Source: a virus
Virus record (IMG/VR): IMGVR_UViG_3300046002_004749
Location: 1-36,685 of that record
Reading direction: 5' to 3' (one strand)
DNA: 36,685 nt
Each line of letters opens with the position of its first letter. Within the stretch, counting starts at the first letter, position 1. The position numbers and the translations under genes are program-made. The notes beneath the pieces were generated by a model. It saw nothing but the letters and a program-made list of their open reading frames with translations. It was not told the origin of the DNA and did not search any database. Positions 1,325 through 19,323 of this stretch are shown in pieces.

Positions 1325-1497
1325 TTTTCCAACTCAATATAAGCGCTCAGCCAATCTCTTAGCTTTACTGAGTTTTCAATTGATAGAATTACAGATGAAT
1401 AGTTGCGGGTATCTTCCACAACTAAAGCAAGACCCCTATCAAGCAGTAAGCATTGAACATCTTGATTTTTATCTATCGCAATATGTAAATCTTCCAT
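1321..1497 (-). CDS. Small hypothetical protein, 58 aa
   Basis: An acidic protein starting MEDLHIAIDK, with an alternating strand/helix pattern and C-terminus WLSAYIELEK. The ATG at 1497 is preferred over an upstream TTG because GGA sits 7 nt before it. It lies after the SSB gene and a weak hairpin (1510-1527), and its stop overlaps the next start. A protein of similar size and style is encoded at 9697-9885 (both have a Leu-rich WL/FL ending), but homology is uncertain. Function unknown. Confidence 0.6.
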   Translation of the reverse strand: MEDLHIAIDKNQDVQCLLLDRGLALVVEDTRNYSSVILSIENSVKLRDWLSAYIELEK

Positions 1498-1509
1498 ATC
1501 AAAATCCAA

Positions 1510-1527
1510 AGCGCCATTGCTGGCGCT
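1510..1527 (-). terminator. Hairpin after SSB gene, possible attenuator
   Basis: On the minus strand, AGCGCC and GGCGCT form a perfect 6-bp stem around a 6-nt loop. The following sequence is TTGGATTTT rather than a clean U run. It may partly terminate after the SSB gene or protect its mRNA, and it probably reduces but does not block expression of downstream genes. Confidence 0.45.
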
Positions 1528-1536
1528 GCTAGTTAA

Positions 1537-2079
1537 TTAAAAAGGGATGTCTGGATCGAAGTCAGGCACTCCACCACCTGATTGCTGCGCTTGCCCGTAA
1601 GTCGGATTAGGCTGATTCTGATAGCCTTGCTGCATCGGCTGCCCAATCTGCGGCTGATAACCTGCTGGCGGTTGTTGGCGTGGCTGATTGTATGACTGCT
1701 GCGGCTGTTGTTGTGGCTGCGGCCTTTGCTGCTGTGGTGTCTGTGCTTGACTGTTGCTTGACTGAGGCGCATGAACAAAGCCTAATTTCGCATCAAGCAA
1801 TTCAATCGACAGGCTCAAACCGTTTTGGCCTTGGAATTGGCGAATCTTCAGCTTATCACCTGAAACTTCGACTACTGCACCTTCAACCAATACTTGTTGG
1901 TAAAACTGGATTTGCGCCGGAGCTTTGGCGAAAATTACAGCGGAATAATTAGTCCACTGATCTGACTTTGTTTCTCTATCGTAGTAGCGCACGCCAACAT
2001 TGATATTGAACCCGGTGTTTTCGCCAGCTTGAAACTGATTGGCTGACTTATTTAACTTTCCTGTAATCGTTGTTGCCAT
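1537..2079 (-). CDS. ssb: Single-stranded DNA-binding protein
   Basis: 180 residues. An N-terminal OB-fold-like region (about 1-105) is followed by a long linker very rich in Gln, Pro and Asn (about 108-168). The protein ends in an acidic tip, DFDPDIPF, matching the DDDIPF-type tail that bacterial SSBs use to recruit partner proteins. The protein should coat single strands at the replication fork and during annealing. It follows the Gp157-family and annealing-protein genes, a standard phage recombination module. AAGG lies 7 nt before the ATG. The OB part is diverged from E. coli SSB, but the tail makes the call firm. Confidence 0.9.
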   Translation of the reverse strand: MATTITGKLNKSANQFQAGENTGFNINVGVRYYDRETKSDQWTNYSAVIFAKAPAQIQFYQQVLVEGAVVEVSGDKLKIRQFQGQNGLSLSIELLDAKLGFVHAPQSSNSQAQTPQQQRPQPQQQPQQSYNQPRQQPPAGYQPQIGQPMQQGYQNQPNPTYGQAQQSGGGVPDFDPDIPF

Positions 2080-4977: not shown

Positions 4978-6310
4978 TTCATACGAAGCTGAATGTGCTT
5001 TCATTGGCTCACTGATCATCATGGCCGATCAAAGACCAATAAACGAACTTTTCAAGCACGTCAACAAGGTTGAAGAAAGTGATTTTTCAGACCTGATCTG
5101 CAAGATAACTTATCGATATATTAAGCAAATGGTTTTGGCTGAGCAGCCTTTTGACGTTGTTAGCTTGTACGATAAAATAGAATCATCAAACATGCTCAAT
5201 GGTGTTGATGTTAAGTTCTCTGACGTTGGCAGGCTGGCTAATGAGCAATCAGGGTTTGCGGCAATAGAAAGCCATCAAGCAAAGATTCTTGATTGTTCGA
5301 TGCGTAGAAGTGCGCTGCAAGAAGTGTCTGCGTTAATCCAGAAGATTGAGCAAGGCGAAGATGTTGTGCAATCTGTTGGTAATGCGGAATCTGCAATGTC
5401 TGTTTTGCTTGGCCGCGTGTCTGGTGGCGACTCTGGTTTGGTTCATATGCGCGACCTGATACCGCAGTGGATTGCTGACGCAGAAGCTGAGTGCAGAAAT
5501 GAGCCTGTTGAAGTTGGCTTTACTTCTGGCTTTTCAGGGCTTGATGAAATGCTAGGTGAAAAGTTATTCAGACCAAAATCGATGCTTGTTATCGGCGCAA
5601 ATCCAGGCAAAGGTAAAACGTCATTGATGATTACAATGTCAACAGCCATTGCCCGCCAATATCCTGATAGGGAAGTGCACGTATATTCTCTGGAAATGCC
5701 AAAAGAGCAGATTGTAGATAAGTTGATGGTCAGTGCAGTAAACAACAAAAAAGCAAGATGGTGGCTTGATGAAGATTGGGCGAGAATTGGCAATCAGATA
5801 CAGACTTTTGAAAGCACAAATCTTTATGTGTGCGATAAGGTTGCTGTTGCTGTTGAGCAAATCAAAGCTAACGCAAGAGCTAAAATCGCACAAGGCATTC
5901 GCATATCGGCAATCTTTATCGACTACGCAACGCTTTTAAAGCTGCCTAAAGCAGATCGTAGGGATTTATCTGTTGGCATGGTGTCGATGGCTTGCACAGC
6001 TTTAGCGAAAGAGATTGGTTGTTTAGTTGTCTTGCTGTCGCAGCTTAGTCGAGAAAACGAAAAACGAGTAAACAAGCGCCCGCAAAATTCAGACTTGCGC
6101 GACTCTGGACAAATAGAACAGGACGCTGGTTATATCCTTTTCCCTTACTTCGATTATCTTTTCCATCCTGATAGCGATTGCGGCCCATTCGCTGAGCTTG
6201 GATTAAATAAAAATAGGTTCGGCGCAACTGGAGTCAGTTATGCCAAAGTGATTAACGGCGTTTGGAATGACTGCGATCAACAAGAAGCAAAAGCGAGGCT
6301 TTGCCAATGA
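4970..6310 (+). CDS. DnaB-like replicative helicase
   Basis: 446 residues. The N-terminal helical domain (about 1-150) is followed by a RecA-type core. The Walker A is GANPGKGKTS (209-218), Walker B AIFIDYA (314-320), then LSQLSRENEKR (356-366) and SDLRDSGQIEQDAG (374-387), matching the DnaB motifs LSQLNR and SDLRESGAIEQDAD. It unwinds DNA at the fork and is probably loaded by the preceding gene product. P22 gp12 is the comparable protein. The stop overlaps the next start (ATGA). The usual DYLQLM after Walker B is DYATLL here, a modest variation. Confidence 0.93.
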   Translation: MVNSYEAECAFIGSLIIMADQRPINELFKHVNKVEESDFSDLICKITYRYIKQMVLAEQPFDVVSLYDKIESSNMLNGVDVKFSDVGRLANEQSGFAAIESHQAKILDCSMRRSALQEVSALIQKIEQGEDVVQSVGNAESAMSVLLGRVSGGDSGLVHMRDLIPQWIADAEAECRNEPVEVGFTSGFSGLDEMLGEKLFRPKSMLVIGANPGKGKTSLMITMSTAIARQYPDREVHVYSLEMPKEQIVDKLMVSAVNNKKARWWLDEDWARIGNQIQTFESTNLYVCDKVAVAVEQIKANARAKIAQGIRISAIFIDYATLLKLPKADRRDLSVGMVSMACTALAKEIGCLVVLLSQLSRENEKRVNKRPQNSDLRDSGQIEQDAGYILFPYFDYLFHPDSDCGPFAELGLNKNRFGATGVSYAKVINGVWNDCDQQEAKARLCQ

Positions 6311-8664: not shown

Positions 8665-8840
8665 AACCAATATCAGACCTAGTGCGCAAATACGGCTCAT
8701 TGCGCAAAACTGGCAAGGTGCTAAACAAATGCCATGCGACGGTTGACCGGTGGGTTAAGGCAGGCGCAAAGATTGGCAGCGACGGAGCTGTTTGGATTAA
8801 GACGGCAGAGACAGGATTTAAACAAGGGGAAGAAGAATGA
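8661..8840 (+). CDS. Small helix-turn-helix protein, 59 aa
   Basis: MKPISDLVRKYGSLRKTGKV followed by LNKCHATVDRWVKAG forms a Cro/XRE-like or MerR-like helix-turn-helix, with W-V-K-A-G after the recognition helix as in small phage regulators. A short β-hairpin (AVWIKT) follows. It overlaps both neighbours by 4 bp. It is likely DNA-binding; the operator is not identified. Confidence 0.65.
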   Translation: MKPISDLVRKYGSLRKTGKVLNKCHATVDRWVKAGAKIGSDGAVWIKTAETGFKQGEEE

Positions 8841-16543: not shown

Positions 16544-17809
16544 ATGGCTAACTCATTACAAAGTAACTACAACAAGAAATTGTTGATGCAGTTTACCAAG
16601 TCATTCATGTCTGAATTGACTATTGCTAAATCAGTTGAACGTCAAGTGTTAGTAAACGACTTTGACGCCACAACTGGCGGCCAAGTTGCAATGAAGCGCC
16701 CAACTCAGTACGCACCACAGCGCACGAATGACGGCGATTTATCAGCAGCATCAACTAACCCAATCAAAGTCGGTCAAGTAATCGGTGAAGTCGGACAATA
16801 CTGCACAGTATTAGTTGAAGCGACTCAAACCGAAAAAGCGTTACAGTTAAACCAACTGGACGAGCTGTTACGTCCTGCTGCTGTTGACATGGCGATTGCC
16901 GTTGAATCTGAGCTTGCAAGCCGCATGGTTAAAGCTGCTGCAATGCAATCAGGCACAAAAGGCACCTTGATCAACAAATGGTCAGACGTTGCCAATGCTG
17001 GCGCTTTATTCCGTCAAGCTGGCGCACCAGAAGGCGACAAGTACGCAGTTATCAACAACTTTGAACAAGTTGCATTAGCTGACAAGCAATCTAGCTTAGC
17101 TGTTAACCCTAATGTTGCTGACGCTTGGTCTTCTGCAACTGTGGCAACTCGCTTTGCTGGTTTTGATCGCGTATTAACGTCAAGCAACCTGGCGCAGTAC
17201 ACAGTCGGCACAGTAACTGCGGCGGCTTTATCAGCTACTCCGGCAGCTACTTACACCACGTATAAAGACACTTACCAAATGACTTTGGCGTTATCTGGTG
17301 TAACTCCATCAACTGGCACAATCAAAGCTGGCCAGCAAATCCAAATTGCTGCAAGCAAGCTGGTTAACTTCCGCAACCGCAACATTGTACGCAGCACCGC
17401 AGGCGACGTGCCTATCACTTTGACAGTGTTGGAAGATGCAACAGCATCAGCAGGCGTTATCGCAGCTCTTAAAGTGTCTGGCGCAGCAATCTTTGAATCT
17501 GGCGTTGATGCAGCGTTCAACACTGTAAACCGCGCTTTCACTTCAGGCGATGCGCTGGTATTCTTAGGTACTGCAAGCTCTGTTCAAACTCCGGCATTAG
17601 CCTACCATAAAGGCTTCTTCGGTATGGGTTCAGTGCAATTGCCTAAGTTGGACAGCTTAGACTCAATGGTCATGAACTATGAAGGCTTCTCGATTCGCGT
17701 TCATAAGTTTAGCGATGGTAAGGCGAATAAGTCTTTCTATCGTTATGACATTCTGCCAACTTTTGCTTGTTACAACCCATTTTGGGGCATGCAGGTCAGC
17801 GGCACCTAA
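16544..17809 (+). CDS. Major capsid (coat) protein, P22 gp5-like
   Basis: 421 residues (P22 gp5 is 430). Segments such as RQVLVNDFD, PTQYAPQRTNDGDLS, AVESELASRM and ATRFAGFDRVLTSSNLA align with the P22 coat fold. P22 has GFDDVLRSPKL at the last position. Residues of about 225-345 are β-rich and probably form the inserted telokin-like I-domain. The ATG has a strong AAAGGAG. The gene ends at the terminator 17829-17850, which suits a highly expressed last gene of its unit. Confidence 0.9.
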   Translation: MANSLQSNYNKKLLMQFTKSFMSELTIAKSVERQVLVNDFDATTGGQVAMKRPTQYAPQRTNDGDLSAASTNPIKVGQVIGEVGQYCTVLVEATQTEKALQLNQLDELLRPAAVDMAIAVESELASRMVKAAAMQSGTKGTLINKWSDVANAGALFRQAGAPEGDKYAVINNFEQVALADKQSSLAVNPNVADAWSSATVATRFAGFDRVLTSSNLAQYTVGTVTAAALSATPAATYTTYKDTYQMTLALSGVTPSTGTIKAGQQIQIAASKLVNFRNRNIVRSTAGDVPITLTVLEDATASAGVIAALKVSGAAIFESGVDAAFNTVNRAFTSGDALVFLGTASSVQTPALAYHKGFFGMGSVQLPKLDSLDSMVMNYEGFSIRVHKFSDGKANKSFYRYDILPTFACYNPFWGMQVSGT

Positions 17810-17828: not shown

Positions 17829-17850
17829 AGGGCGCGAAAGCGCCCTTTTT
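17829..17850 (+). terminator. Rho-independent terminator after the coat gene
   Basis: A 6-7 bp GC-rich stem (GGGCGC/GCGCCC) is capped by a GAAA tetraloop and followed by five U residues. It ends the head operon. The stop codon of the minus-strand HNH gene lies in its T tract. Confidence 0.92.
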
Positions 17851-18421
17851 ATTGGTATCTTTTAACTATCGCTTCAGCAACTCTTTTATCTTCTTGAAGC
17901 TCAGCCACGAGCAAAGCAAGCTCATGCTTTCTTTTCTTCCAAGCTAAGTGTGCAGAAAGCTCGCTGTCGAAATATCCGAGAAAGTCGCTTTTCTTGGTGA
18001 ATGGATTGCTGCACCTTGATTGATAAACCTTATCTCTTGAGTGAAAGTTAACACCAATCATCGTGCAGCCTCTTGCGGCTTTATTTTCATTAATGAAGCT
18101 GTTTGTCATCGAGCTAACAAATACGCATGTTTCAGGAGAGTAAACCTTGTTGTCTTGACGCAAAATATCCTTGTCAAGTTGCTTGCCTTGCCAATCTTGC
18201 TGAATCATCCAGCTTCTGAAATTGCTAAAAGTAAGCCATTCATCACATACATAGCAGCCAATGTATGACGGCTTTTTTGCTTGGTATATTTTTGAGTAGC
18301 ATCGAGTAATCATGCTTTGCCATGCCTTATAGAAAGGACACATAACATGCTTACCGTTTATGATTGGGTTTACTTTGTAATCAATGTCGTTGAAGCCAAC
18401 GCCACAAAGGAGCTTTGCCAT
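17849..18421 (-). CDS. HNH homing endonuclease with AP2-like domain
   Basis: 190 residues. The N-terminal part holds the degenerate HNH pattern typical of phage free-standing homing endonucleases: WQSMITRCYSK, VCDEWLTFSNFRSWM, LDKDIL and NKVYSPETCVFVS. The C-terminal part (RGCTMIGVNF, KVYQSRCS, LGYFDSELSAHLAWKKRKHE) fits an AP2-type DNA-binding domain. It would cut an allele lacking the insertion and spread by repair. It is opposite in strand to the late genes, has its own promoter and structured leader, and lies between coat and gp4, so it is a mobile intruder. Confidence 0.85.
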   Translation of the reverse strand: MAKLLCGVGFNDIDYKVNPIINGKHVMCPFYKAWQSMITRCYSKIYQAKKPSYIGCYVCDEWLTFSNFRSWMIQQDWQGKQLDKDILRQDNKVYSPETCVFVSSMTNSFINENKAARGCTMIGVNFHSRDKVYQSRCSNPFTKKSDFLGYFDSELSAHLAWKKRKHELALLVAELQEDKRVAEAIVKRYQ

Positions 18422-18513
18422 AATATCTCTACCTTTTGAGATTCCTGAATTAGAATGGCGGCAACTGGCTTCAGGTGTGACCAGCTTTCGGGAGCTAACC
18501 TAGCCGCACATAA
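18422..18513 (-). promoter_or_regulatory. Structured 5' leader of the HNH gene
   Basis: On the minus-strand transcript an outer stem pairs GCGGC (18503-18507) with GCCGC (18458-18462) and encloses a second stem, CTGGTCA/TGA-AG-CCAG (18465-18484), with a 4-nt loop. Near the start codon ATCTC/GAGAT closes a small hairpin with the AAGG ribosome site in its loop. Homing endonuclease genes of T4 are known to be delayed by leader hairpins; a similar control here is inference. Confidence 0.5.
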
Positions 18514-18522
18514 ATTATAGCA
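18514..18522 (-). promoter_or_regulatory. Extended -10 promoter for the HNH gene
   Basis: On the minus strand TGC-TATAAT is a perfect -10 with an extended TGn element (TATAAT at 18514-18519). No good -35 is seen at 16-18 bp, which extended -10 promoters can lack. Confidence 0.6.
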
Positions 18523-18536
18523 ACAAAACATAGAAG

Positions 18537-18565
18537 TTGCACGATTAACGAAGTTGGTTTAATCT
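18537..18565 (+). promoter_or_regulatory. Promoter for the putative non-coding RNA
   Basis: TTGCAC (18537-18542), 17-bp spacer, TAATCT (18560-18565). It would start RNA at about 18571-18573, at the foot of the long stem described for the downstream RNA. It diverges from the HNH promoter 15 bp away. Box matches are moderate. Confidence 0.5.
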
Positions 18566-18569
18566 ATTG

Positions 18570-18771
18570 AAATTACCTCTTGGCTTGGCGACTAATGGCC
18601 GATGCAAGGTTACAGACTAAAGCTGCTTCCTCAGCTTGTTATAGCTTCCTTGTTGAAATTGTCGCAGGCAGGTTCTTTCCGTCCACATAGTACGGTTTCT
18701 ACCTTTCCGCCATAGCTGCATGGTGCCGACATCGCAGCAAACAGACCAGCCTTGTGCTGGTTTTGTTTTTT
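18570..18771 (+). ncRNA. Putative structured non-coding RNA, about 200 nt
   Basis: A 465-bp gap before the gp4 gene has no convincing coding sequence but strong RNA structure on the plus strand. A long irregular stem pairs 18569-18592 with 18661-18679. It consists of GAAA/TTTC, ACCT/AGGT, and GCTTG(g)CGAC/GTCGCAGGC. Nested in it are CAAGG (18605-18609)/CCTTG (18648-18652) and AAGCTG (18620-18625)/CAGCTT (18632-18637). Then come CCGT/ACGG and GCTGC/GCAGC hairpins, and finally an intrinsic terminator at 18745-18771. A promoter lies just upstream. I do not recognise the family; 6S, tmRNA, RNase P and group I intron cores do not fit. Confidence 0.55.
18745..18771 (+). terminator. Rho-independent terminator of the putative RNA
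   Basis: ACCAGC (18745-18750) and GCTGGT (18756-18761) pair around CTTGT, followed by a U-rich run broken by one G. No open reading frame on this strand ends before it, which implies a non-coding transcript. Confidence 0.85.
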
Positions 18772-18885: not shown

Positions 18886-19323
18886 ATGATCACAAAAGGC
18901 GATTTAATCAAAGGCGCAATGCAGCACTTAGCTGCTGATGGTTTATTAATGCAACCAATGGCGCAAGATAACCAGGCAGCTTTGCAGCACCTTGACGACT
19001 TTGCAGCTAGTTATGCAGCCATCGGTCAAGATGTCGGCTATCTTCAACCGTTAGAATATGGCACAAGCACAGAGTCAGACGATTCCGGCGTTGATGTGTC
19101 ATTGGTTGGCCCTGTTAAAGTTATGCTTGCTGCCTATATTGCAAATATGTTTGGCAAAGAATTAAACCATAGCAAAACGACATGGGCTGAAGGTATGATG
19201 ATGAAGCAACTGGTTAGCGTTGACGGATGCAAATATCCTGTGACGCTTCCGGTTGGTTCAGGCAATTACGATTCAATGAGTGACCAGCAATACTATCGCG
19301 GCGGTTTGCCGTTTGAAAATTAA
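18886..19323 (+). CDS. Tail accessory protein, P22 gp4-like
   Basis: 145 residues (P22 gp4 is 166). MITKGDLIKGAMQHLAADGL, LQHLDDFAASYAAIGQDVGY and VKVMLAAYIANMFGKEL match the gp4 family. It binds beneath the portal ring after packaging and begins sealing the head. It is the first gene of the second late unit, behind its own promoter. AAGGAG follows immediately for the next small gene. Confidence 0.88.
   Translation: MITKGDLIKGAMQHLAADGLLMQPMAQDNQAALQHLDDFAASYAAIGQDVGYLQPLEYGTSTESDDSGVDVSLVGPVKVMLAAYIANMFGKELNHSKTTWAEGMMMKQLVSVDGCKYPVTLPVGSGNYDSMSDQQYYRGGLPFEN

Follow-up and report, generated by a model that had tools for sequence, protein, structure and literature searches.

A structured RNA gene with two predicted pseudoknots, carried next to different capsid genes in metagenomic phage contigs

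The coat–gp4 interval and its plus-strand RNA unit

The window (i.e., the whole 36,685-base virus record that was analysed) holds a P22-like head module, of which the portal gene (PF16510) forms part, and a terminase large subunit gene. The interval from the end of the coat gene (17809) to the start of the gp4-like gene (18886) is occupied by the coat terminator, by a minus-strand HNH endonuclease gene with its leader, and by a plus-strand unit consisting, in this order, of a putative promoter (18537–18565), an RNA (~18572–18770) and its terminator. None of the ten neighbouring proteins was recognised as a defence-system protein by PADLOC. The features of the interval are as follows:

16544–17809, plus strand: P22-like coat protein gene, upstream of the RNA (PF11651, 185 bits)
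17849–18421, minus strand: free-standing HNH endonuclease gene (phrog_953 at 1e-87), a neighbour lying outside the RNA unit
18443–18519, minus strand: int-alpA-like leader belonging to the HNH gene, TATAAT lying on the 5′ side (leader region ~18422–18519; RF02996, 24.7 bits)
18537–18565, plus strand: putative promoter TTGCAC-N17-TAATCT, with an expected start at ~18572 and a spacing conserved among copies
18572–18770, plus strand: structured non-coding RNA of ~200 nt (covariance model R1; 17 other IMG/VR copies and the distant locus L041)
18739–18770, plus strand: intrinsic terminator with an extended stem and a U tract (terminator scan; 97.9% paired, two compensatory pairs)
18886–19323, plus strand: P22 gp4-like tail accessory gene, downstream of the RNA (PF11650, 39 bits)

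A preliminary description of this DNA had credited the RNA with a promoter and a terminator of its own. The terminator was recovered by the terminator scan and carries compensatory changes. For the putative promoter, 11 of the 18 copies have the form TTGCNN-17 nt-TAATCT in the corresponding position with divergent spacers, and the other seven lack it; the window's version agrees with the consensus at 6 of 12 positions, which is not significant in one sequence and went unlisted by a consensus promoter scan. Directly after the RNA terminator, 11 of the 18 copies have a TTGACA-type promoter of another gene, so that the simplest role for the terminator is to end a separate transcript, and the RNA very probably constitutes a transcription unit of its own, judging from this arrangement. 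Its longest ORFs span 19–42 codons in frames that differ among copies, no reading frame being conserved. A coding RNA was thus rejected, in agreement with the preliminary description, which had seen no convincing reading frame.

The minus-strand leader of the HNH gene is a different element. Its score against RF02996 (int-alpA), for which the cut-off is 35.8 bits, is 24.7 bits in the window and 30.5 bits in L041 (both below the cut-off), vs. 47.6 bits in L004 and 38.8 bits in L026 (both above); among the 20 HNH-relative loci scanned, only L026 passes. By blastn, the leader motif was detected in phages of Shewanella, Vibrio, Aeromonas and Pseudoalteromonas; in most cases it is followed closely by a gene with the annotation HNH/NUMOD4, DNA-binding or hypothetical. 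Int-alpA-like leaders were found in the window, L001–L008, L026, L027, L039–L041 and L049. In Aeromonas phage 4_4512 (L007, ~1462–1539, minus strand), the motif precedes a gene for a hypothetical, TM-like protein of ~51 aa, not an HNH gene, and blast places it at two positions of that record.

In 13 of the leader loci, the second hairpin has a loop complementary to the sequence that separates this hairpin from the start codon. This match is specific to the own locus (mean of 6.1 vs. 4.6 nt, permutation p of 5e-5), and some of the matching sites overlap the ribosome-binding site. The pattern suggests that the HNH gene may be under cis translational control by loop–leader pairing, C4-like in principle, and such pairing is possibly the mechanism of the int-alpA family.

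Covariation among copies and the predicted fold

Folded as a single sequence, the RNA is unremarkable (MFE of –58.8, z of –1.44), with 15 of 200 shuffles folding as well. Such folding energy does not prove a structure; comparison does. Two IMG/VR contigs with near-identical coat proteins carry the RNA in the same place with no HNH gene in between, and pattern scans, run for two independent parts of the RNA, returned much the same contigs and added a few. This yielded 18 IMG/VR copies including the window, of which 17 distinct ones were aligned (alignment A2).

RNAalifold proposed 46 pairs on A2, 14 of them with changes on both sides. After refinement of the structure with pseudoknots allowed, 99.4% of the cells of the 17 copies are paired and 18 of the 46 pairs show both-side changes. 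The covariation score reached 0.370, compared to 0.146 for shuffled alignments (none of 500 reaching the observed value) and 0.021–0.061 for slid controls; likewise, 99 cells with both-side changes were observed vs. 33.6 expected on shuffling and 0–6 on sliding.

A covariance model built from A2 (R1, spanning 18573–18770) scores 236.9 bits on the window, whose sequence is itself part of what the model was built from. It also finds a distant homologue in L041 (52.5 bits, E of 1e-13 to 1e-14), a locus originally collected for its HNH leader motif, independently of the plus-strand RNA. Despite low sequence identity, L041 keeps P1, P2, the inner stem of P4 and both pseudoknots. With L041 added to A2, 99.0% of the cells are paired and double compensatory changes are seen in 23 of the 49 pairs, a result matched by none of 500 shuffles. 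Weak R1 hits in L007, L078, L060 and L100 were judged to be chance, and looser scans of viral sequences revealed no homologue beyond the 18 copies and L041.

With covarying stems thus present in homologues, the plus-strand stretch is almost certainly a real structured RNA gene, and the ~200-nt structured RNA of the preliminary description is borne out at its position and on its strand. The fold predicted from covariation has nine helices and two H-type pseudoknots, with the following elements, all on the plus strand:

18583–18599: hairpin of pseudoknot 1 (18583–18585/18597–18599), whose loop carries the 5′ strand of P1
18589–18664: P1 (18589–18596/18658–18664, U18593 bulged), formed between the loop of the first hairpin and the strand that follows P2
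18604–18653: P2 (18604–18609/18648–18653), with double changes in 6 of 6 pairs and enclosing P3
18620–18637: P3 hairpin (18620–18625/18632–18637) with loop CUUCCU and double changes in 5 of 6 pairs
18670–18704: P4 (18670–18673/18701–18704 and 18679–18682/18692–18695), with a symmetric pyrimidine internal loop between its two stems
18710–18738: pseudoknot 2 (18710–18712/18721–18723, and loop 18715–18719, GCUGC, with 18734–18738, GCAGC)

Support differs among these elements. P2, P3, the inner stem of P4, the first stem of pseudoknot 2 and the terminator are well supported by compensatory changes. The inner stem of P4 occurs as CCGU/ACGG, CCGC/GCGG and CUGG/CCAG, with double changes in two pairs, and in the first stem of pseudoknot 2 all three pairs covary (CCA/UGG, UCG/CGA, CUU/AAG). 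The basis is thinner for the hairpin of pseudoknot 1, for P1 and for the outer stem of P4, and uneven among them. In the hairpin, one pair varies (C-G, G-C or U-G, 100% paired) and the other two are invariant; in P1 there are two varying pairs, i.e., A-U changed to G-C in five copies and U-A changed to A-U in L041; and the outer stem of P4 rests mostly on invariance. The second stem of pseudoknot 2 is almost invariant and 98.9% paired, and L041 seems to preserve this pseudoknot by a shifted pairing of loop CUGCA with UGCAG. The loop of P3 is invariant in A2 as CUUCCUC, of which UCCU is kept in L041. The copy in L053 (6505–6721) has ~19 nt extra between pseudoknot 1 and P2, where the junction tolerates a change in length.

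The long nested stem proposed in the preliminary description survives in part. Both of its inner stems (P2 and P3) are confirmed, and its outer portion is reduced to P1. The part of the outer extension that was tested (ACCU at ~18575 with AGGU at 18670–18673) has 76% of its cells paired, no compensatory pairs and a result equal to shuffles; instead, AGGU at 18670–18673 pairs with 18701–18704. That description had also missed both pseudoknots, and the fold derived from covariation differs from it accordingly.

Distribution and exchange of the RNA

The carriers of the RNA are metagenomic phage contigs only. At the sensitivities used, blastn searches of cultured phages, plasmids and E. coli returned, besides the HNH-leader motif, only terminator matches or short matches due to chance, and pattern scans of GTDB contigs returned no copy. 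When neighbour families were assigned from one member per group, the RNA was found downstream of a P22 coat (PF11651) gene in the window, L050 and L053, of a phrog_283 head protein gene in L044, L048, L057 and L058, and of a Gp13-like capsid (PF20036) gene in L045, L047, L051 and L054, while a fourth group (L042, L043, L049, L052, L055 and L056) has it after a phrog_9747 gene. In some copies, one accessory gene separates the capsid gene from the RNA. The phrog_283 protein also matches the P22 coat family (38.8 bits), and these two classes may be distant relatives; the Gp13-like capsid matches its own Pfam family only.

The same 29-nt promoter stretch is found in the window and in L054 despite their different capsid classes. 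Moreover, helix alleles are reshuffled among copies: most helix pairs show four-gamete sets, so that the RNA unit recombines. The cassette of promoter, RNA and terminator is thus passed by recombination among phages that differ in capsid type. The relative L012 has the same operon and lacks the RNA, which marks the RNA as accessory.

The region 3′ of the RNA is a hot spot of accessory genes. Variable accessory genes with their own TTGACA promoter directly follow the RNA terminator in L042, L043, L046, L050, L052, L053 and L055, and the one in L046 resembles the C-terminal part of phrog_3483. L047 has a second copy of the 3′ end of the RNA and its terminator (8760–8794) after the downstream accessory gene, a duplication that suggests cassette exchange by homologous recombination at terminators. 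In L041, the distant copy of the RNA is directly preceded by a sequence (5322–5391) that resembles the 3′ part of a tRNA, from the D arm to CCA; it received no ARAGORN call and an Rfam tRNA score below the cut-off, was rejected as a tRNA, and is possibly the remnant of an attachment site.

Possible function and relation to known RNAs

We favour, with some reserve, a stand-alone phage gene for a non-coding RNA that acts in trans and is carried as a moron-like accessory function. The RNA would be transcribed as its own unit and would serve a purpose useful in the hosts shared by the carrier phages; taken by itself, the trans-acting and accessory character of the RNA seems probable. The covarying helices would fix conserved unpaired stretches in position for a partner. 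In this fold, 76% of the unpaired vs. 54% of the paired columns are invariant, and loops that vary less than the stems are typical of RNAs binding a specific partner.

This partner could be either a host protein or ribonucleoprotein, or else mRNAs contacted via the invariant, anti-Shine-Dalgarno-like CUUCCU loop of P3. The UUCCU of this loop is the best lead to a target, though binding of mRNA through it is itself doubtful. Several phage initiation regions match the CUUCCU loop well, in a test of low power, and phage ribosome-binding sites pair with UUCCU at –3.8 kcal/mol vs. –2.4 kcal/mol for random 35-mers, a difference expected of any anti-SD-like string. A bolder and still more tentative idea is that of a class of doubly pseudoknotted RNAs acting in trans on a machine of the host or of a rival phage (the ribosome, a ribonucleoprotein or a defence complex), e.g., as decoy or inhibitor, and traded between phages that differ in capsid and share a host.

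Among the alternatives, a cis-acting element of the late operon, i.e., a leader or attenuator, or a processive antitermination RNA like put of HK022, controlling read-through into the tail genes, seems unlikely. In put-type systems, the nascent RNA makes the polymerase pass downstream terminators. The RNA always lies on the strand of the structural genes, near a capsid gene where late transcription must pass, and a terminator follows directly, all of which would suit such an element. What lies 3′ of the RNA, however, differs between copies, a TTGACA-type promoter right after the terminator serves the next gene in 11 of the 18, no alternative pairing was seen that would open the terminator, and L012 has the same operon without the RNA. 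For an antiterminator, moreover, a conserved terminator directly after it would be odd. A packaging or virion-associated RNA, loosely like the pRNA of phi29, would fit a location among the head genes of several phage types, but is very improbable for an RNA common to different head types, missing from the head relative L012, and found in a window that has a terminase large subunit and in which no phi29-like motor was seen.

The preliminary description had also considered a tie to the adjacent endonuclease, which did not hold up. In favour of a guide, leader or homing-related RNA, the HNH gene adjoins the RNA in the window and in L041, and the L049 contig contributes two more HNH relatives. Yet these are the only 3 of 19 RNA loci with a relative of this HNH gene in the fetched flanks (the other 16 have none), the arrangement differs in each, the orientation of the HNH gene differs between the window and L041, and a separate leader, on the strand opposite to the RNA, belongs to the HNH gene; we consider this link highly improbable. 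Least credible of all is a sequence without function, be it chance stems in an intergenic region or the remains of a coding sequence or of an intron, for which the unremarkable single-sequence folding energy might speak: compensatory changes in 23 pairs, reached by none of 500 shuffles, argue against this, as does the lack of any ORF or match to an intron family. With strong covariation, conserved loops, a compact unit and horizontal exchange among capsid types, the RNA is directly expressible and testable, and the identity of its partner would reveal a host process worth targeting for several phage lineages.

The RNA had been called unrecognised, and a scan of the whole window with Rfam 15 agreed, giving no match at the gathering cut-offs; when E values up to 10 were admitted, RyhB alone matched within the RNA on the plus strand (16.3 bits vs. 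a cut-off of 55). Apart from tRNAs and antisense switches, very few phage RNAs are known with a fold established by comparison. A large list of viral RNA candidates, compiled computationally in earlier work, may include this one, unnamed. In P22, the sar RNA is an antisense RNA of immI (arc-ant); it has no Rfam match in the window, and the present RNA sits elsewhere, between coat and gp4. The int-alpA family (RF02996) is related to the minus-strand HNH leader and unrelated to the plus-strand RNA.

In the literature, comparable phage RNAs are the T4 band C/D, PAK_P3, C4, AgvB, AsxR and IsrK RNAs, none of which could be identified with the plus-strand RNA. T4 band C/D and the PAK_P3 sRNAs are likewise small RNAs encoded by (virulent) phages, with unknown function, those of PAK_P3 being intergenic, abundant late and ~100 nt long (PMC4933390). 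Compared by description only, they differ from the present RNA in size and context, and the passages drawn on here describe no covariation-backed conserved fold for them, unlike for the RNA studied here (PMC4933390). The C4 antisense RNA of P1/P7 is, like our RNA, a structured phage RNA; it carries complementary sequence in its loops and blocks translation at the ribosome-binding site (PMC12197685), whereas the plus-strand RNA does not match C4 in Rfam and contains two pseudoknots in its fold. The prophage sRNAs AgvB, AsxR and IsrK are phage-carried accessory RNAs that act in trans on host or phage regulation (PMC12197685); the present RNA has no Rfam-detectable relation to them and a more elaborate fold supported by covariation.
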